Positions 35,451-64,000 of a stretch of DNA of 64,000 nucleotides are shown here, in pieces. Numbering within the stretch: position 1 is the stretch's first letter; each line of letters begins with the position of its first letter. Origin of the DNA: Rhynochetos jubatus (Eukaryota; Chordata; Aves; Eurypygiformes; Rhynochetidae); assembly GCA_027574665.1 (NCBI GenBank), contig CM050654.1, positions 43,421,722 to 43,485,721 of the forward strand, in the 5' to 3' direction. Under the pieces are notes generated by a model. That model did no database searches, was not told the origin of the DNA, and was given only the letters and a program-made list of their open reading frames with translations. The translations under genes were made by a program, and so were the position numbers.

Positions 35451-37431
35451 CGCTGCTGCCGCCCTGCGGCTGGGGCTGTGTAATGCAGGCGGGGGCACGC
35501 GAATGCGCATTGGTGCGTGTTGCCTTGCTCGATGCTGCCGCCCGGCGACCAGATTTCGGTACTGCAGCCAGGGAGTTGCGCATGCGCAGTGCTGCTCCTC
35601 GGCTTGCTCTCTACCGTTACCCGGCGCCCACTCTTAGGAACTGCCGCCGGAGAGCTGCGCGTGCCCCGCGCTGCGCTTTGCCTTGCTGGATTCTGCCGTT
35701 CTACGACCCAAGTGTGGTAGTGCCGCCCGGCGGGCGAGGAAGCGCATCGCTTCGCCTTGCCTCGCTCGCTGCTGCCGCCCTGAGAGCAGCAACTGCTGCA
35801 GCGGGGTGCGGCTCGTGCGCACGGCAGCGCTGCGGCTGGCTCCCTGCTGCCACCGTGTGGGGACAGTTCGGTACTGCAGGTACGATTACGCGAAGGTGCT
35901 TTAGCGCGCCTCGCCCTGCTCTCTGCTGCCACCGTGCGAATGACATGCGGTACTGCAATCGGAGAGGCGCGCATGCGCTTTACAGCGCAGCTCTCGGCTC
36001 TCTGCTGCCACCGTGCGAATGAAATGGGGTACTGCAGGCGGAGAGGCGCGCATGCGCTTTACAGTGCCTCGCTCAGCTCTCTGCTGCCACCGTGCGAATG
36101 AAATGCGGTACTGCAGGCGGAGAGGCGCGCATGCGCTTTACAGCGCCTCTCTCGGCTCTCTGCTGCCACCGTGCGAATGAAATGCGGTACTGCAGGCGGA
36201 GAGGCGCGCATGCGCTTTACAGCGCCTCTCTCGGCTCTCTGCTGCCACCGTGCGAATGAAATGCGGTACTGCAGGCGGGGAGGCGCGCATGCGGTTTACA
36301 GTGCCTCTCTCTGCTCTCTGCTGCCACCGTGCGAATGAAATGCGGTACTGCAGGCGGAGAGGCGCGCATGCGCTTTACAGCGCCTCTCTCGGCTCTCTGC
36401 TGCCACCGTGCGAATGAAATGCGGTACTGCAGGCGGAGAGGCGCGCATGCGCTTTACAGCGCCTCTCTCGGCTCTCTGCTGCCACCGTGCGAATGAAATG
36501 CGGTACTGCAGGCGGAGAGGCGCGCATGCGCTTTACAGCGCCTCTCTCGGCTCTCTGCTGCCACCGTGCGAATGAAATGCGGTACTGCAGGCGGGGAGGC
36601 GCGCATGCGCTTTAGGGCACACCCCGGCTCTCTGCTGCCACCGTGCGAATGAAATACGGTACTGCAGGCGGAGAGGCGCGCATGCGCCTTACAGTGCCTC
36701 TCTCGGCTCTCTGCTGCCACCGTGCGAATGAAATGCGGTACTGCAGGCGGAGAGGCGCGCATGCGCCTTACAGTGCCTCTCTCGGCTCTCTGCTGCCACC
36801 GTGCGAATGAAATGCGGTACTGCAGGCGGAGAGGCGCGCATGCGCTTTACAGCGCCTCTCTCGGCTCTCTGCTGCCACCGTGCGAATGAAATGCGGTACT
36901 GCAGGCGGAAAGGCGCGCATGCGCCTTAGAGCGCCTCTCTCGGCTCTCTGCTGCCACCGTGCGAATAAAATCGGGTACTGCAGGCGGAGAGGCGCGCATG
37001 CGCTCTACAGCGCCTCTCTCGGCTCTCTGCTGCCACCGTGCGAATGAAATCGGGTACTGCAGGCGGAGAGGCGCGCATGCGCTTTAGAGCGCAGCTCTCG
37101 GCTCTCTGCTGCCACCGTGCGAATGAAATGCGGTACTGCAGGCGGAGAGGCGCGCATGCGCTTTACAGCGCCTCTCTCGGCTCTCTGCTGCCACCGTGCG
37201 AATAAAATCGGGTACTGCAGGCGGAGAGGCGCGCATGCGCTTTACAGTGCCTCGCTCAGGTCTCTGCTGCCACCGTGTGGGGACAGTTCGGTACTGCAGG
37301 CGGGGAGACGCGAAGGGGCATCGCCGCTCCCTGCCCTGCTCCCTGCCGCCAACGTGCGAATACACCTCGGTACTGCCGGCGGGGTGGCGCGCATGCGCAC
37401 TGCTGCGCCTTGCCTTGCTGGCTGCCGGCGC
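35451..37431 (+). repeat. 79-bp minisatellite array 1, NRF1-like palindromes
   Basis: Eighteen regular monomers have GCTGCCACCGTGCG-type starts from 35925 to 37266 at 79-bp steps (one step of 77). They are flanked by diverged monomers from about 35451 and to about 37431. Nearly every monomer contains GGCGCGCATGCGC, a close match to the NRF1 site YGCGCAYGCGCR, plus GGTACTGCAGGCGG. Because 79 is not a multiple of three, frames rotate and no coding role is likely. The array is extremely CpG-rich and lies between copies A and B. Confidence 0.95.
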
Positions 37432-45130: not shown

Positions 45131-47184
45131 GTCGCTGCTGCCGCCCTGCGGCTGGGGCTGTGTAATGCAGGCGGGGGAGCGCGCATGCGCATTGGTGCGC
45201 TTTGCCTTGCTCGATGCTGCCGCCCGGCGGCAAGATTTTGGTACTGCAGCCAGGGAGTCGCGCATGCGCAGTGCTGCTCCTCGGCTTGCTTCTCTACCGT
45301 TACCCGGCGCCCACTCTTAGGAACTGCCGCGGGAGAGCTACGCGTGCCCCGCGCTGCGGTTTGCCTTGCTGGATTCTGCCGTTCTACGACCCAAGTGTGG
45401 TAGTGCCGCCCGGCGGGCGAGGAAGCGCATCGCTTCGCCTTGCCTCGCTCGCTGCTGCCGCCCTGAGAGCAGCAACTGCTGCAGCGGGGTGCGGCTCGTG
45501 CGCACGGCAGCGCTGCGGCTGGCTCCCTGCTGCCACCGTGTGGGGAAAGTTCGGTACTGCAGGTACGATCACGCGAATGTGCTTTAGCGCGCCTCGCCCT
45601 GCTCTCTGCTGCCACCGTGCGAATAAAATGCGGTACTGCAGGCGGAGAGGCGCGCATGCGCTTTACAGCGCAGCTCTCGGCTCTCTGCTGCCACCGTGCG
45701 AATGAAATGCGGTACTGCAGGCGGAGAGGCGCGCATGCGCTTTACAGCGCAGCTCTCGGCTCTCTGCTGCCACCGTGCGAATGAAAAGCGGTACTGCAGG
45801 CGGAGAGGCGCGCATGCGCATTAGGGCACCTCTCGGCTCTCTGCTGCCACCGTGCGAATGAAATGCGGTACTGCAGGCGGAGAGGCGCGCATGCGCTTTA
45901 GGGCACCTCTCGGCTCTCTGCTGCCACCGTGCGAATGAAATGCGGTACTGCAGGCGGAGAGGCGCGCATGCGCTTTACAGCGCAGCTCTCGGCTCTCTGC
46001 TGCCACCGTGCGAATGAAATGCGGTACTGCAGGCGGAGAGGCGCGCATGCGCTTTACAGCGCCTCTCTCGGCTCTCTGCTGCCACCGTGCGAATAAAATC
46101 GGGTACTGCAGGCGGAGAGGCGCGCATGCGCTTTACAGTGCCTCTCTCGGCTCTCTGCTGCCACCGTGCGAATGAAATGCGGTACTGCAGGCGGGGAGGC
46201 GCGCATGCGGTCTACAGCGCCTCGGCTCTCTGCTGCCACCGTGCGAATAAAATCGGGTACTGCAGGCGGAGAGGCGCGCATGCGCTTTAGAGTGCCTCTC
46301 TCGGCTCTCTGCTGCCACCGTGCGAATGAAATGGGGTACTGCAGGCGGAGAGGCGCGCATGCGCTTTACAGCGCCTCTCTCGGCTCTCTGCTGCCACCGT
46401 GCGAATGAAATGCGGTACTGCAGGCGGAGAGGCGCGCATGCGCTTTACAGCGCCTCTCTCGGCTCTCTGCTGCCACCGTGCGAATGAAATGCGGTACTGC
46501 AGGCGGAGAGGCGCGCATGCGCTCTACAGCGCCTCTCTCGGCTCTCTGCTGCCACCGTGCGAATGAAATGCGGTACTGCAGACGGAGAGGCGCGCATGCG
46601 CTCTACAGCGCCTCTCTCGGCTCTCTGCTGCCACTGTGCGAATAAAATCGGGTACTACAGGCGGAGAGGCGCGCATGCGCTTTAGAGCGCCTCTCTCGGC
46701 TCTCTGCTGCCACCGTGCGAATGAAATGGGGTACTGCAGGCGGAGAGGCGCGCATGCGCTTTACAGCGCCTCTCTCGGCTCTCTGCTGCCACCGTGCGAA
46801 TGAAATGCGGTACTGCAGGCGGAGAGGCGCGCATGCGCATTAGGGCACCTCTCGGCTCTCTGCTGCCACCGTGCGAATGAAATGCGGTACTGCAGGCGGA
46901 GAGGCGCGCATGCGCTTTAGGGCACCTCTTGGCTCTCTGCTGCCACCGTGCGAATGAAATGCGGTACTGCAGGCGGAGAGGCGCGCATGCGCTTTACAGC
47001 GCCTCTCTCGGCTCTCTGCTGCCACCGTGTGGGGAAAGTTCGGTACTGCAGGCAGAGAGGCGTGAAGGGGCATCGCCGCTCCCTGCCCTGCTCCCTGCTC
47101 CCACCGTGCGAATAGAGTTCCGTACTGTCGGCGGGGTGGCGCGCATGCGCATTGCTGCGCCTTGCCTTGCTGGCTGCCGGCGCG
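45131..47184 (+). repeat. 79-bp minisatellite array 2, NRF1-like palindromes
   Basis: Nineteen regular monomers lie between 45608 and 47018, mostly 79 bp with some of 77 or 75 bp, and diverged monomers sit on both sides. Each contains the GCGCATGCGC palindrome or a one-base variant. It separates copies B and C just as array 1 separates A and B, and shares the diverged left-flank monomers with it. Confidence 0.95.
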
Positions 47185-56150: not shown

Positions 56151-56789
56151 TGCAGGACGAGCTGTCGGCATCACCCGTGCCTGGCAGGGAGGTGCCTGTG
56201 GCCGGGATTTGCTGCCATCTCCCTTTCTGTGCTGGAGCCAGAAGGAACCTCGACACAGCTCCACCATCCCAGACATTTTCCCTGAGCGACTGAGCAGACG
56301 GGAGTGACGATGGATAGTGTGGGCACAAAAAAGGATTTTCTGTCTGTAAAACCCCAGCGGCTGTTGTTAATGTGCCGGGGAACCGAGTGCAGCTCAAACC
56401 CCTCCCGCACAGCACAGCCCGACGGCAAAGGAGATCCCAGCTGTGCACAGAGTCCCTCAGCTGTGGGCCAGGGGCTGACGTTCCTGTCCCGGCCCCGACT
56501 CCTGCCCACAGCACGGCCGCTGTGTCGGGTGGGAGCCCCGAGCGGCAGGAAGGAGGGAGCTGGGTGGGGGCTGCTGGTTCCCTCGGGGGGAGCAGGAGCT
56601 GCCCAAACCCTGAGGGTGGGGGGCCAACACTAATGGTTATTCCTGAGTTCTGCTCCCAGGGGAGCAGGGAGGGAGCAGGAATGCTGCTCACCGTAGGCCT
56701 GAGGGATTGATGCCAGGTGGTGCTGACCAGGGAAGGGAAATGACAGAACGAGAAGAAAAAGTGGGAGAGTGAGAAAGAACTCACCAGCC

Positions 56790-56870
56790 CCGGTACCGGG
56801 ATGCGCACTGCAGCTCAGCGATCACACATAAGCGGTGCTGTGCTTTGCCTGACTCGCCGCTGTCGTCAGC
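56790..56870 (+). repeat. Remnant of the 79-bp minisatellite before copy D
   Basis: GGTACCGGGATGCGCACTGCAG and following CTGTGCTTTGCCTGACTCGCCGCTG resemble diverged edge monomers of arrays 1 and 2 (GATGCGCA in place of GCATGCGCA). It sits exactly where an array would separate copies C and D. Confidence 0.55.
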
Positions 56871-57238
56871 TGGAAGGGACCTTAAAGATCATCAGATTCG
56901 GACCGCCATGGACACCTGCCCCGAGCCCACGGAGCTTTCCGCGCCGCTGCCTTTCCTGTTCGCTCTGCGCTCTGTGTTCCCGTGCCGGCTAACTGCGGGG
57001 AAACGCTGCGGCGCGTGCGCGGTGCTGCTGCTGCGCTCGCTGCTGCCACCCGGTCACCAATGTTTAGTAGTGCAGCGGCGAAGACACGCATGCGCAATAC
57101 TAGATGGCCACCGCCCGCCCCCCCCCCCCGGACGGGCAAAGCTTAACACTGCAGCTCCGGTGCCGCCCCGGCACGCCTCGCCTGCCGCGCGCTCGCTGCT
57201 GCTGCCGCTCCGTTGCTGGAGGTCGGTCCTGCAGGGTC
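56871..57238 (+). repeat. Truncated fourth unit head, copy D
   Basis: It starts with CAGCTGGAAGGGACCTTAAA and GACACCTGCCCCGAGCCCAC, as in the heads of A-C, and runs through the CpG-rich head to CGGTCCTGCAGGG, where homology stops. It is the start of a fourth unit that ends after about 370 bp and is replaced by the 61/62-bp array. Confidence 0.8.
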
Positions 57239-57339
57239 CTAAAACCCTAAAGCAAATCCGAACTCCCGGCATACCCAAAGGATTCAGTATGACCGACCGC
57301 CGGCGGCATCCAGCTGTACTACAATGCCCGGGAGCATCA
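57239..57339 (+). other. Junction between copy D and the terminal array
   Basis: Short non-unit sequence beginning TCCTAAAACCCTAAAGC (degenerate telomere-like). It contains eroded versions of the array motif (ACTCCCGGCATACC; GTACTACAATGCCCGGGAGC). Confidence 0.6.
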
Positions 57340-58040
57340 AGGCAACGGACTACAGTTCCCGGCATAATGCGGGGAACAAACATGGCCGACGGGCAACGTC
57401 GCGTTTGCGTAGGACACTTCCCGGCATGCATCGGGGAACAAACATGGCCGACGGGCAACGTCGCGTTTGCGTAGGACACTTCCCGGCATGCTGCGGGGAA
57501 CAAACATGGCCGACGGGCAACGTCGCGTTTGCGTAGTACAGTTCCCGGCATGCATCGGGGAACAAACATGGCCGACGGGCAACGTCGCGTTTGCGTAGGA
57601 CACTTCCCGGCATGCAGCGGGGAACAAACATGGCCGACGGGCAACGTCGCGTTTGCGTCGGACACTTCCCGGCATGCTGCGGGAAACAAACATGGCCGAC
57701 GGGCAACGTCGCGTTTGCGTAGGACACTTCCCGGCATGCTGCGGGGAACAAACATGGCCGACGGGCAACGTCGCGTTTGCGTAGCACACTTCCCGGCATG
57801 CCGCGGGGAACAAACATGGCCGATGGGCAACGTCGCGTTTGCGTAGGACACTTCCCGGCATGCTGCGGGGAACAAACATGGCCGACGGGCAACGTCGCGT
57901 TTGCGTAGGACACTTCCCGGCATGCTGCGGGGAACAAACATGGCCGACGAGCAACGTCGCGTTTGCGTAGTACACTTCCCGGCATGCATCGGGGAACAAA
58001 CATGGCCGACGGGCAACGTCGCGTTTGCGTACTACAGTTC
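57340..58040 (+). repeat. Terminal array, type 1 (62-bp monomers)
   Basis: Eleven monomers have CCGGCAT starts at 57359, 57421, 57483 and so on to 57979, at exact 62-bp steps. The consensus runs CACTTCCCGGCATGC, GGGGAACAAACATGGCCGAC, GGGCAACGTCGCGTTTGCGT. ATGGCCGAC resembles a YY1 core, and TTCCCGGCATGC is the core of the ZNF143 motif, here mostly without its ACTACA half. Multiple CpG per monomer. The open frames on both strands are by-products of the tandem structure. Confidence 0.95.
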
Positions 58041-58660
58041 CCGGCATGCTCCGGGAACGAATATGGCTTCCCGGAAGCGTCGTGTTGCGGACTACATTTC
58101 CCGGCATGCTCCGGGATCGAACGCGGCTTCCCGGAAGCGTCGCGTTTGCGGACTACAGTTCCCGGCATGCTCTGGGCACGAACTCGGGTACCCGGAAGCG
58201 TCGCGTTTGCGGACTACAGTTCCCGGCATGCTCTGGGAACGAACACGGGTTCCCGGAAGCGTCGCGATTCCGGACTACAGTTCCCGGCATGCTCTGGGAA
58301 CGAACTCGGGTACCCGGAAGCGTCGCGATTCCGGACTACAGTTCCCGGCATGCTCCGGGAACGAACACGGGTTCCCGGAAGCGACGCGTTTGCGTACTAG
58401 AGTTCCCGGCATGCTGCGGGAACGAACGCGGGTACCTGGAAGCGTCGCGATTGCGGACTACAGTTCCCGGCATGCTCCGGGAACGAACACGGGTTCCCGG
58501 AAGCGTAGCGTTTGCGTACTACAGTTCCCGGCATGCTCTGCGAACGAACACGGGTTCCCGGAAGCGTCGCGTTTGCGTACTACAGTTCCCGGCATACTCC
58601 GGGAACGAACGCGGGTACCCGGAAGCGTCCTGTTTGCGGACTACAGTTCCCGGCATGCCG
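58041..58660 (+). repeat. Terminal array, type 2 (61-bp monomers, ZNF143-like sites)
   Basis: Eleven monomers at 58041, 58101, 58162 and on to 58650, at 61-bp steps (the first step is 60). The consensus has ACTACAGTTCCCGGCATGC followed by TCCGGGAACGAACACGGGTT and CCCGGAAGCGTCGCGTTTGC. ACTACA plus TTCCC(A/G)GCATGC is the long form of the ZNF143/STAF binding site typical of promoters. Ten of the eleven carry an intact ACTACA; one reads ACTAGA. Confidence 0.95.
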
Positions 58661-58763
58661 TGTCCGCCATTTTCTTTTCTCGGAGGACGCTGGGAACTGT
58701 AGTACTAGAGCTGCTTCCGCCCATCGGCCATTTTGATTACGATTTGAATTCCATTTAAAAAAC
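58661..58763. promoter_or_regulatory. Junction of the array and telomere, inverted motif
   Basis: TGTCCGCCATTTTCTTTTC (YY1-like CGCCATTTT) is followed by GCTGGGAACTGTAGTACTAG, an inverted ACTACAGTTCCCAGC site. A second CGGCCATTTTG and about 25 bp of AT-rich sequence come before the first TAGGG. The motif pair faces the array in the opposite direction. Confidence 0.6.
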
Positions 58764-59230
58764 TAGGGTTAGGGTTAGGGTTAGGGTTAGGGTTAGGGTT
58801 AGGGTTAGGGTTAGGGAAATCAGGGTTAGGGTTAGGGTTAGGGTTAGGGTTAGGGTTAGGGTTAGGGTTAGGGAAATCAGGGTTAGGGTTAGGGTTAGGG
58901 TTAGGGTTAGGGTTAGGGTTAGGGTTGTTAGGGTTAGGGTTAGGGTTAGGGTTAGGGTTAGGGTTAGGGTTAGGGTTAGGGTTAGGGGTTAGGGTTAGGG
59001 GTTAGGGTTAGGGTTAGGGTTAGGGTTAGGGTTAGGGTTAGGGTTAGGGTTAGGGTTAGGGTTAGGGTTAGGGTTAGGGTTAGGGTTAGGGTTAGGGTTA
59101 GGGTTAGGGTTAGGGTTAGGGTTAGGGTTAGGGTTAGGGTTAGGGTTAGGGTTAGGGTTAGGGTTAGGGTTAGGGTTAGGGGTTAGGGTTAGGGGTTAGG
59201 GTTAGGGTTAGGGTTAGGGTTAGGGGTTAG
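58764..59230 (+). repeat. Proximal telomere with variant repeats
   Basis: TTAGGG repeats are interrupted by variants: two GGGAAATCAGGG interruptions about 57 bp apart (near 58817 and 58874), one GTTGTTAGGG near 58925, and several TTAGGGG units near 58984, 58996, 59178, 59190 and 59221. Variant repeats concentrated at the centromere-facing edge are typical of a true telomere. Confidence 0.95.
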
Positions 59231-60869
59231 GGTTAGGGTTAGGGTTAGGGTTAGGGTTAGGGTTAGGGTTAGGGTTAGGGTTAGGGTTAGGGTTAGGGTT
59301 AGGGTTAGGGTTAGGGTTAGGGTTAGGGTTAGGGTTAGGGTTAGGGTTAGGGTTAGGGTTAGGGTTAGGGTTAGGGTTAGGGTTAGGGTTAGGGTTAGGG
59401 TTAGGGTTAGGGTTAGGGTTAGGGTTAGGGTTAGGGTTAGGGTTAGGGTTAGGGTTAGGGTTAGGGTTAGGGTTAGGGTTAGGGTTAGGGTTAGGGTTAG
59501 GGTTAGGGTTAGGGTTAGGGTTAGGGTTAGGGTTAGGGTTAGGGTTAGGGTTAGGTTAGGGTTAGGGTTAGGGTTAGGGTTAGGGTTAGGGTTAGGGTTA
59601 GGGTTAGGGTTAGGGTTAGGGTTAGGGTTAGGGTTAGGGTTAGGGTTAGGGTTAGGGTTAGGGTTAGGGTTAGGGTTAGGGTTAGGGTTAGGGTTAGGGT
59701 TAGGGTTAGGGTTAGGGTTAGGGTTAGGGTTAGGGTTAGGGTTAGGGTTAGGGTTAGGGTTAGGGTTAGGGTTAGGGTTAGGGTTAGGGTTAGGGTTAGG
59801 GTTAGGGTTAGGGTTAGGGTTAGGGTTAGGGTTAGGGTTAGGGTTAGGGTTAGGGTTAGGGTTAGGGTTAGGGTTAGGGTTAGGGTTAGGGTTAGGGTTA
59901 GGGTTAGGGTTAGGGTTAGGGTTAGGGTTAGGGTTAGGGTTAGGGTTAGGGTTAGGGTTAGGGTTAGGGTTAGGGTTAGGGTTAGGGTTAGGGTTAGGGT
60001 TAGGGTTAGGGTTAGGGTTAGGGTTAGGGTTAGGGTTAGGGTTAGGGTTAGGGTTAGGGTTAGGGTTAGGGTTAGGGTTAGGGTTAGGGTTAGGGTTAGG
60101 GTTAGGGTTAGGGTTAGGGTTAGGGTTAGGGTTAGGGTTAGGGTTAGGGTTAGGGTTAGGGTTAGGGTTAGGGTTAGGGTTAGGGTTAGGGTTAGGGTTA
60201 GGGTTAGGGTTAGGGTTAGGGTTAGGGTTAGGGTTAGGGTTAGGGTTAGGGTTAGGGTTAGGGTTAGGGTTAGGGTTAGGGTTAGGGTTAGGGTTAGGGT
60301 TAGGGTTAGGGTTAGGGTTAGGGTTAGGGTTAGGGTTAGGGTTAGGGTTAGGGTTAGGGTTAGGGTTAGGGTTAGGGTTAGGGTTAGGGTTAGGGTTAGG
60401 GTTAGGGTTAGGGTTAGGGTTAGGGTTAGGGTTAGGGTTAGGGTTAGGGTTAGGGTTAGGGTTAGGGTTAGGGTTAGGGTTAGGGTTAGGGTTAGGGTTA
60501 GGGTTAGGGTTAGGGTTAGGGTTAGGGTTAGGGTTAGGGTTAGGGTTAGGGTTAGGGTTAGGGTTAGGGTTAGGGTTAGGGTTAGGGTTAGGGTTAGGGT
60601 TAGGGTTAGGGTTAGGGTTAGGGTTAGGGTTAGGGTTAGGGTTAGGGTTAGGGTTAGGGTTAGGGTTAGGGTTAGGGTTAGGGTTAGGGTTAGGGTTAGG
60701 GTTAGGGTTAGGGTTAGGGTTAGGGTTAGGGTTAGGGTTAGGGTTAGGGTTAGGGTTAGGGTTAGGGTTAGGGTTAGGGTTAGGGTTAGGGTTAGGGTTA
60801 GGGTTAGGGTTAGGGTTAGGGTTAGGGTTAGGGTTAGGGTTAGGGTTAGGGTTAGGGTTAGGGTTAGGG

Positions 60870-60901
<32 letters not shown>

Positions 60902-63900
60902 AGGTTAGGGTTAGGGTTAGGGTTAGGGTTAGGGTTAGGGTTAGGGTTAGGGTTAGGGTTAGGGTTAGGGTTAGGGTTAGGGTTAGGGTTAGGGTTAGGG
61001 TTAGGGTTAGGGTTAGGGTTAGGGTTAGGGTTAGGGTTAGGGTTAGGGTTAGGGTTAGGGTTAGGGTTAGGGTTAGGGTTAGGGTTAGGGTTAGGGTTAG
61101 GGTTAGGGTTAGGGTTAGGGTTAGGGTTAGGGTTAGGGTTAGGGTTAGGGTTAGGGTTAGGGTTAGGGTTAGGGTTAGGGTTAGGGTTAGGGTTAGGGTT
61201 AGGGTTAGGGTTAGGGTTAGGGTTAGGGTTAGGGTTAGGGTTAGGGTTAGGGTTAGGGTTAGGGTTAGGGTTAGGGTTAGGGTTAGGGTTAGGGTTAGGG
61301 TTAGGGTTAGGGTTAGGGTTAGGGTTAGGGTTAGGGTTAGGGTTAGGGTTAGGGTTAGGGTTAGGGTTAGGGTTAGGGTTAGGGTTAGGGTTAGGGTTAG
61401 GGTTAGGGTTAGGGTTAGGGTTAGGGTTAGGGTTAGGGTTAGGGTTAGGGTTAGGGTTAGGGTTAGGGTTAGGGTTAGGGTTAGGGTTAGGGTTAGGGTT
61501 AGGGTTAGGTTAGGGTTAGGGTTAGGGTTAGGGTTAGGGTTAGGGTAGGGTTAGGGTTAGGGTTAGGGTTAGGGTTAGGGTTAGGGTTAGGGTTAGGGTT
61601 AGGGTTAGGGTTAGGGTTAGGGTTAGGGTTAGGGTTAGGGTTAGGGTTAGGGTTAGGGTTAGGGTTAGGGTTAGGGTTAGGGTTAGGGTTAGGGTTAGGG
61701 TTAGGGTTAGGGTTAGGGTTAGGGTTAGGGTTAGGGTTAGGGTTAGGGTTAGGGTTAGGGTTAGGGTTAGGGTTAGGGTTAGGGTTAGGGTTAGGGTTAG
61801 GGTTAGGGTTAGGGTTAGGGTTAGGGTTAGGGTTAGGGTTAGGGTTAGGGTTAGGGTTAGGGTTAGGGTTAGGGTTAGGGTTAGGGTTAGGGTTAGGGTT
61901 AGGGTTAGGGTTAGGGTTAGGGTTAGGGTTAGGGTTAGGGTTAGGGTTAGGGTTAGGGTTAGGGTTAGGGTTAGGGTTAGGGTTAGGGTTAGGGTTAGGG
62001 TTAGGGTTAGGGTTAGGGTTAGGGTTAGGGTTAGGGTTAGGGTTAGGGTTAGGGTTAGGGTTAGGGTTAGGGTTAGGGTTAGGGTTAGGGTTAGGGTTAG
62101 GGTTAGGGTTAGGGTTAGGGTTAGGGTTAGGGTTAGGGTTAGGTTAGGGTTAGGGTTAGGGTTAGGGTTAGGGTTAGGGTTAGGGTTAGGGTTAGGGTTA
62201 GGGTTAGGGTTAGGGTTAGGGTTAGGGTTAGGGTTAGGGTTAGGGTTAGGGTTAGGGTTAGGGTTAGGGTTAGGGTTAGGGTTAGGGTTAGGGTTAGGGT
62301 TAGGGTTAGGGTTAGGGTTAGGGTTAGGGTTAGGGTTAGGGTTAGGGTTAGGGTTAGGGTTAGGGTTAGGGTTAGGGTTAGGGTTAGGGTTAGGGTTAGG
62401 GTTAGGGTTAGGGTTAGGGTTAGGGTTAGGGTTAGGGTTAGGGTTAGGGTTAGGGTTAGGGTTAGGGTTAGGGTTAGGGTTAGGGTTAGGGTTAGGGTTA
62501 GGGTTAGGGTTAGGGTTAGGGTTAGGGTTAGGGTTAGGGTTAGGGTTAGGGTTAGGGTTAGGGTTAGGGTTAGGGTTAGGGTTAGGGTTAGGGTTAGGGT
62601 TAGGGTTAGGGTTAGGGTTAGGGTTAGGGTTAGGGTTAGGGTTAGGGTTAGGGTTAGGGTTAGGGTTAGGGTTAGGGTTAGGGTTAGGGTTAGGGTTAGG
62701 GTTAGGGTTAGGGTTAGGGTTAGGGTTAGGGTTAGGGTTAGGGTTAGGGTTAGGGTTAGGGTTAGGGTTAGGGTTAGGGTTAGGGTTAGGGTTAGGGTTA
62801 GGGTTAGGGTTAGGGTTAGGGTTAGGGTTAGGGTTAGGGTTAGGGTTAGGGTTAGGGTTAGGGTTAGGGTTAGGGTTAGGGTTAGGGTTAGGGTTAGGGT
62901 TAGGGTTAGGGTTAGGGTTAGGGTTAGGGTTAGGGTTAGGGTTAGGGTTAGGGTTAGGGTTAGGGTTAGGGTTAGGGTTAGGGTTAGGGTTAGGGTTAGG
63001 GTTAGGGTTAGGGTTAGGGTTAGGGTTAGGGTTAGGGTTAGGGTTAGGGTTAGGGTTAGGGTTAGGGTTAGGGTTAGGGTTAGGGTTAGGGTTAGGGTTA
63101 GGTTAGGGTTAGGGTTAGGGTTAGGGTTAGGGTTAGGGTTAGGGTTAGGGTTAGGGTTAGGGTTAGGGTTAGGGTTAGGGTTAGGGTTAGGGTTAGGGTT
63201 AGGGTTAGGGTTAGGGTTAGGGTTAGGGTTAGGGTTAGGGTTAGGGTTAGGGTTAGGGTTAGGGTTAGGGTTAGGGTTAGGGTTAGGGTTAGGGTTAGGG
63301 TTAGGGTTAGGGTTAGGGTTAGGGTTAGGGTTAGGGTTAGGGTTAGGGTTAGGGTTAGGGTTAGGGTTAGGGTTAGGGTTAGGGTTAGGGTTAGGGTTAG
63401 GGTTAGGGTTAGGGTTAGGGTTAGGGTTAGGGTTAGGGTTAGGTTAGGGTTAGGGTTAGGGTTAGGGTTAGGGTTAGGGTTAGGGTTAGGGTTAGGTTAG
63501 GGTTAGGGTTAGGGTTAGGGTTAGGGTTAGGGTTAGGGTTAGGGTTAGGGTTAGGGTTAGGGTTAGGGTTAGGGTTAGGGTTAGGGTTAGGGTTAGGGTT
63601 AGGGTTAGGGTTAGGGTTAGGGTTAGGGTTAGGGTTAGGGTTAGGGTTAGGGTTAGGGTTAGGGTTAGGGTTAGGGTTAGGGTTAGGGTTAGGGTTAGGG
63701 TTAGGGTTAGGGTTAGGGTTAGGGTTAGGGTTAGGGTTAGGGTTAGGGTTAGGGTTAGGGTTAGGGTTAGGGTTAGGGTTAGGGTTAGGGTTAGGGTTAG
63801 GGTTAGGGTTAGGGTTAGGGTTAGGGTTAGGGTTAGGGTTAGGGTTAGGGTTAGGGTTAGGGTTAGGGTTAGGGTTAGGGTTAGGGTTAGGGTTAGGGTT

Positions 63901-64000
63901 AGGGTTAGGGTTAGGGTTAGGGTTAGGGTTAGGGTTAGGGTTAGGGTTAGGGTTAGGGTTAGGGTTAGGGTTAGGGTTAGGGTTAGGGTTAGGGTTAGGG
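59231..64000 (+). repeat. Terminal telomere, (TTAGGG)n
   Basis: About 4.8 kb of almost pure TTAGGG that continues to the last base of the window. Rare one- or two-base deviations occur near 59553, 60888-60903, 61507, 61545, 62142, 63101, 63441 and 63494; these may be real or sequencing indels. The G-rich strand runs 5' to 3' towards the right, so the terminus lies beyond the right edge. Confidence 0.98.

Follow-up and report, generated by a model that had tools for sequence, protein, structure and literature searches.

Human TERRA arises largely from CpG-rich 61-29-37 bp repeats, of which the 29-bp repeat has NRF1 sites, and CTCF sites lie ~300 bp downstream (PMC6600276). The human 37-bp repeat is enriched in CAGE tags and H3K4me3 (PMC12242772). 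On the lampbrush chromosomes of chicken, turkey and pigeon oocytes, G-rich TTAGGG transcripts extend towards the terminus (PMC3648425). Unlike the array described here, these terminal transcription units are a cytological finding, for which the available text of the report gives no promoter sequence (PMC3648425). The PO41 repeat of chicken and quail is, like our array, an avian subtelomeric tandem repeat, and it is transcribed, including in somatic tissue. However, its unit is 41 bp, both of its strands are transcribed, and the available text does not describe it as a telomere-abutting promoter (PMC4301066). No avian TERRA promoter was found in the accessible parts of the open-licence literature searched. 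Among the matches listed for a pairing of ZNF143 with the subtelomere, none was on this subject by its title and the start of its abstract, and the core string of our monomer matched only in a paper on a human helicase.

We analysed a 64,000-nucleotide window (the whole stretch of DNA considered below), which is the end of contig C7 in a bird assembly of 1.33 Gb in 148 contigs. This genome has at least 150 matches to the Pfam keratin family PF02422 (150 of 197 candidates scored), which marks it as that of a bird; 14 control genomes had none. A CpG-rich tandem array abuts the telomere repeat in this window, and an earlier sequence-only reading had proposed it as a candidate TERRA promoter. The observation of a telomere-abutting array is confirmed, with a slightly corrected motif count, and is stronger than first thought. 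The promoter proposal is plausible and now has genome-wide support. We lean, with modest confidence, towards a TERRA-type chromosome-end promoter unit that would use ZNF143/THAP11, YY1 and ETS motifs.

Like the human 61-29-37 (Type I) family, the unit consists of CpG-rich tandem repeats near TTAGGG at many ends with the G-rich strand downstream, and it repeats sites for a methylation-sensitive promoter factor (PMC6600276, PMC12242772). Unlike that family, which is reported to use NRF1 (in the 29-bp repeat) and CTCF, it carries THAP11/ZNF143, YY1 and ETS motifs; transcription has been demonstrated for the human repeats only. The 61-bp period by itself is no evidence of kinship with the human repeat. 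The telomere-proximal repeat here lacks the NRF1 sites of the human family: the pattern GCATGCGC, which we take to be NRF1-like, is absent from the array, and its occurrences in the window are confined to the stretch from 28 to 54 kb and a single site at 57088. Two patterns that we take to represent CTCF sites had no match from 28 kb to the telomere and one match in the first 28 kb.

Structure of the array and linker

The array starts at 57348 and comprises 21 complete monomers, followed by a 22nd that merges into the linker after ~22 bp (monomer table). Eleven monomers are 62 bp long, nine are 61 bp and one is 60 bp. The TTCCCGGCAT core is present in 22 copies in register, counted from 57348. 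The 22 tandem monomers of 61-62 bp first reported thus stand as register copies of the core, while the complete monomers number 21 and range from 60 to 62 bp. TRF called the array at 57349-58658 with 21.3 copies. Monomers 1-11 (type A, 62 bp; 57348..58029, plus strand) combine the core with a YY1-like AACATGGCCGA. Monomers 12-21 (type B, 60-61 bp), together with the start of monomer 22 (58030..58660, plus strand), mostly carry the THAP11/ZNF143 composite and an ETS-like CCGGAAG. In the alignment, identity is 94.5% within type A, 89% within type B and 72.5% between the two.

The array ends at ~58660 and the first TTAGGG-type sequence is found at 58764. The gap of 103 bp agrees with the distance of about 100 bp noted originally, and the CpG richness noted with it was also borne out by measurement. 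The segment 57350-58763 (1,414 bp) has a CpG o/e of 1.39 and a GC content of 0.61, against a CpG o/e of 0.27-0.58 in 500-bp bins from 54.0 to 57.0 kb, and is a CpG island in character. On the centromere side the array is bordered by a flank (56640..57339, plus strand) that has copies at other contig ends in the own-genome search and, in the motif scan, an M4 site at 57318 and the NRF1-like GCATGCGC at 57088. On the other side, the terminal TTAGGG tract called by TRF occupies 58764..64000, its G-rich strand being the plus strand. Two AAATCAGGG interruptions occur near the array, at 58810-58890, within otherwise regular TTAGGG.

The linker to the telomere (58661..58763) holds one inverted monomer, on the minus strand, as a partial profile match. 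Within it the motif scan placed a first YY1-like site (58664..58674), an M4 (THAP11/ZNF143) site (58691..58703) and a second YY1-like site (58725..58735), all on the minus strand. In the profile search the inverted monomer (~40 of 61 positions) was found in all 16 genome copies of the linker with E-values from 4.5e-5 to 0.068, the weakest at the C54 start, and the inverted M4 is retained in 14 of the 16. In the same search, the C6 and C7 inner arrays had three inverted monomers at their outer end. As single-stranded DNA the linker can form a hairpin (z -3.45). We considered the hairpin as a functional element and read it instead as a by-product of forward and inverted M4.

Recurrence at chromosome ends

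Many chromosome ends carry the unit, on the immediate centromere side of the TTAGGG tract. The composite with at most one mismatch occurs at 672 places in the genome; the reversed control gave 0 and 1. Among the matches listed (100 of the 672, all exact, on contigs C4, C6, C7, C8 and C11-C14), every one is less than 110 kb from a contig end and faces that end. A 108-bp linker query has 16 genome places with 87-100% identity, 15 of them within 7 kb of a contig end, and the same 16 were recovered with a second query copy. They comprise the ends of C4, C7, C12, C18, C24 and C25, the starts of C8, C11, C14, C15 and C54, both ends of C13 and of C17, and one internal place at 3.30 Mb on C32. The only indels among the 16 copies are two single bases at the C12 end, and in every copy a TTAGGG-type repeat follows directly. 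This repeat is mostly variant at the C17 and C54 starts, with a TTAGGG fraction of 0.07 and 0.16 of the stretch examined. The variant units there, such as TTCGGG and TTACGG, contain CpG.

The 700-bp flank has at least 40 matches (40 of 206 candidates scored). Twenty-two of these, the window included, are 85-100% identical over essentially the whole flank, 16 are 76-79% identical, and two are partial at 96-97%. Thirty-four of the 40 are no more than 150 kb from a contig end, towards which every one of them is oriented; the remaining six, four on C32 and two on C46, lie 0.7-3.3 Mb inside. The monomer, which the sequence-only reading proposed to seek at other ends of this genome, is therefore found at many of them in one orientation and is not confined to a single end.

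Seven of ten contig starts (C1-C4, C9, C10 and C12) have neither telomere tract nor array core in the first 8 kb. Within the same distance C5 has telomere repeat between gaps, C6 has an array beside a gap, and C15 has both telomere and array. C1 begins within the flank of the unit, and C5 has 14 cores at 10-11 kb. Neither tract nor core is present in the last 4.5 kb of C6 or in the last 600-1,000 bases of C2, C3, C14, C15, C28 and C30. Among nineteen starts viewed over their first 600 bases, possibly too short a stretch, two are all N, C19 has nine TTAGGG, C22 has six CCCTAA, C32 has one TTAGGG and the rest have none. The ends that carry no telomere or array are probably unfinished. Some contigs are small (1-2 Mb or less), and their ends are not necessarily chromosome ends.

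Copies of the flank are found deep inside C32 (0.82 Mb and 3.30 Mb) and C46 (0.74-0.78 Mb), and the copy at 3.30 Mb on C32 keeps the linker and degenerate TTAGGG. These copies are either old chromosome fusions or scaffolding errors. At the C7 start (~1050-1065) a telomere-type tract meets the array in the middle of a monomer, without a linker, which looks like a healed chromosome end.

Motif content of the monomers

The consensus of the M4 element, a THAP11 half (ACTACA) joined to a second half, and that of the STAF site (SBS) are given in PMC5006282. In the 58,764 non-telomeric bases of the window, short M4 has 13 matches, 12 on the plus strand and one on the minus strand. All are located at 57318-58703: one in the flank, 11 in the array and one, inverted, in the linker. 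Dinucleotide shuffling of the array gives a chance expectation of 0.003. The long M4 consensus, RRACTACANNTCCCRRNRNRC, has seven exact matches against none in 300 shuffles, and 14 matches on the plus strand when up to two mismatches are allowed. Since copies of one monomer are not independent, this enrichment speaks for the monomer and not for each copy. Short M4 occurs in 10 of the 11 distal monomers and in monomer 1. The exact composite ACTACA-N-TTCCCGGCATGC is present in nine monomers, not in the ten distal monomers counted earlier.

The sequence-only reading had equated this composite with the ZNF143/STAF motif paired with THAP11. The M4 portion fits the published consensus, with seven monomers matching the long form exactly, but the full SBS consensus YWCCCRNMATSCMYYRCR has no exact match in the window. 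Near-matches to SBS in the array comprise four with one mismatch and nine with two, and another nine with two mismatches are found elsewhere in the window. M4 may also have other binders, because Ikaros-family and NF-kappaB proteins were recovered in the M4 pull-down as well (PMC5006282). The known element differs from ours in setting: it is found near gene starts with a peak at -89 (PMC5006282), whereas here it is in tandem, at chromosome ends, with imperfect SBS halves.

In the proximal type A monomers ACTACA is mostly lost; all 11 carry a AACATGGCC-type site, read on the plus strand, and the type B half has nine CCGGAAG sites. We take the former to be YY1-like and the latter to be ETS-like. 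A YY1 form, AANATGGCG, is given in PMC1088961. No Rfam match above the gathering score was obtained in the window, and the STAF-type sites therefore cannot be attributed to a known RNA gene in it. Viral contigs and prokaryote genome contigs gave no match in exact-pattern scans.

Motif conservation and CpG retention

Several observations suit a silent, promoter-derived satellite that spreads by end-to-end exchange, its sites inherited from a housekeeping-type promoter and its conservation a result of recent copying. Visual inspection divides the linkers into two sequence groups that are shared across ends. The telomeric arrays have between 10 and 28 monomer starts and yet keep their order, and there are duplicated inner copies at distances of 24-107 kb from contig ends. 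Each of the 17 arrays that have a telomere-side end begins, reading outward, with typed monomers of the YY1 type, and ETS or double types are on the telomere side, with interspersed exceptions, for example at the C12 end, C17 start and C18 end. Because the ends share ancestry and exchange sequence, the recurrence, orientation and order of the arrays are not independent events.

To weigh this we compared the identity of motif columns with that of other columns under circular shifts of the motif mask, in 10 of 20 excised arrays. The masks were drawn after the alignments had been seen; the motifs themselves had been named earlier from the window alone. In the inner arrays, whose monomers are ~75% pairwise identical, the motif columns are the conserved ones: 0.887 against 0.745 for the rest in the C6 inner array and 0.894 against 0.741 in the C7 inner array, although these two look like copies of each other and are hence not independent. 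None of 61 shifts was as good in seven arrays (the C6 and C7 inner arrays, the C11, C14, C15 and C54 starts and the C18 end). The C17 start (4 of 60 shifts) and C13 end (3 of 60) are intermediate, and the window's own array has a weak motif contrast (7 of 61 shifts as extreme), which suits the satellite. In the alignment of the 16 linkers, 5 of 36 motif columns are variable against 29 of 87 others, and none of 122 shifts was as extreme.

CpG o/e is 1.22-1.36 in the eight telomeric arrays measured, and of the nine CpGs in the linker, seven persist in 14 or more of the 16 copies. CpG transitions per site are 0.05-0.13 in the eight telomeric arrays and ~0.16 in two inner arrays. In the ten arrays they are 1.4-4.6 times as frequent as those at other C/G positions, and some germline methylation is therefore likely. 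The retention of CpGs and the o/e values nevertheless suggest mostly low germline methylation, with the reservation that young copies would look alike. In chicken and duck, telomeric regions are described as more methylated than the genome overall (PMC11745021). The conserved motif columns of the diverged inner arrays, and the CpGs largely retained in telomeric arrays and linkers, which suggest low germline methylation without proving it, lead us to regard the silent satellite as unlikely. Both features fit a promoter, and both come from one genome with sequence-sharing ends.

In the C6 inner array, ~60 kb from the contig end, several single monomers hold M4, YY1-like and ETS-like motifs together, and three inverted monomers come last. 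The DNA beyond it has the appearance, by eye, of an LTR-type repeat.

Predicted start and direction of transcription

The sequence of the unit, its presence at many ends, its orientation, the conservation of its motifs and the retention of its CpGs were established in this analysis. From these we infer factor binding, transcription and a start near 58729. In the TERRA-type promoter we favour, the array would act as a CpG-island promoter. ZNF143 and THAP11, with HCF-1, would bind the repeated M4, and YY1 and ETS factors would assist. RNA polymerase II would start at the outer edge of the array and enter the TTAGGG tract, giving UUAGGG RNA (TERRA). The predicted start, at ~58729, would be ~35 nt before the telomere repeat, and further starts inside the array are possible.

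The position of the start was predicted from two published spacings. M4 sites peak at -89 from starts (PMC5006282). In a 2005 promoter survey, YY1 sites that read AANATGGC on the sense strand were mainly located at +1 to +25, and those in the opposite orientation sat at -3 as an initiator (PMC1088961). The last forward M4 starts at 58640, which places the start at 58729, or at 58735 when the centre of M4 is the reference point for -89. The second YY1-like site of the linker (58725..58735) spans the predicted start and is oriented as an initiator when viewed on the plus strand. The -89 and -3 rules thus agree on ~58729; by our own estimate, such agreement would arise by luck in roughly one case in eight. 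In the type A block, 10 of 11 monomer starts (the exception is the last) have the YY1-like site of the next monomer 93 bp on. This spacing would also fit a plus-strand start, though the type A M4 halves are weak.

The inverted monomer of the linker would probably also start transcripts that run the other way, and bidirectional initiation is reported at some ZNF143 sites in a preprint (PMC11118474). We consider it improbable that the main product of the unit is RNA that starts at the inverted monomer and runs inward through the subtelomere. The linker does contain an inverted M4, and its two YY1-like sites read AANATGGC when taken on the minus strand, the orientation found mainly at +1 to +25 of starts (PMC1088961). 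However, this single inverted monomer faces 22 forward cores, each of the 11 type A monomers has its YY1-like site in plus-strand orientation, and none of 10 ORFs around or inward of the array matched a Pfam family. We think it just as improbable that ZNF143, YY1 and HCF-1 bound to the array form a boundary that blocks the spread of telomeric heterochromatin and anchors the ends without productive transcription: the array is located exactly between the subtelomere and TTAGGG, and ZNF143 has been linked to chromatin loops in the literature, but according to the title of a 2025 paper the action of ZNF143 is independent of both looping and CTCF, and neither of the two presumed CTCF patterns has a match near the array.

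Several observations count against the TERRA-type promoter itself, namely the weak conservation in the window's own array and the intermediate values of two others, the absence of an exact SBS, the ACTACA mostly lost from the proximal half, the decay of CpGs, the higher methylation of telomeric regions in chicken and duck, and the lack of a match near the array to either pattern presumed to represent CTCF sites, which are reported at human TERRA promoters. On the other hand, ZNF143, NRF1 and ETS motifs are among those held to set promoter structure in the preprint on ZNF143 depletion (PMC11118474). We also suggest, as a tentative extension on which we would not yet rely, that the arrays could be the start points of the telomere transcripts of bird lampbrush chromosomes, which have been known since 1994. 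They would then form a genome-wide class driven by ZNF143/THAP11 and independent of the human NRF1/CTCF type, and with a start ~35 nt before the repeat their RNA would be almost pure UUAGGG. A defined 1.4-kb unit with a predicted start makes the question of where TERRA starts in birds directly testable. If the unit is active, tandem CpG-rich repeats have become chromosome-end promoters in two vertebrate lineages that rely on different transcription factors for them, and TERRA in birds is tied to the ZNF143/HCF-1 programme.

Subtelomeric context

Twenty ORFs, a subset of those in the window, were compared with Pfam and gave no match at E 0.001. The stretch 29514-54067 consists of about two and a half tandem units of ~9.7 kb that are 94-96% identical. 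TRF and the motif scan placed a 79-bp array with NRF1-like GCGCATGCGC sites inside one such unit (35898..37398, plus strand) and a second in the next (45521..47162, plus strand), at least 11 kb from the telomere. The 79-bp repeat has at least 265 matches in the genome (40 of 220 candidates scored), and is found close to many contig ends in a single orientation: the matches listed on C2-C4, C6-C8 and C11-C16 face whichever contig end is closer. Kinship between the flank and the 79-bp array was considered and set aside as weak (local score 34, where 200 shuffles reached at most 30). The ~9.7 kb units also contain stretches of 3-4 kb in which the plus strand is strongly pyrimidine-rich, with an AT skew of about -0.75 and a GC skew of about -0.5 per kb.
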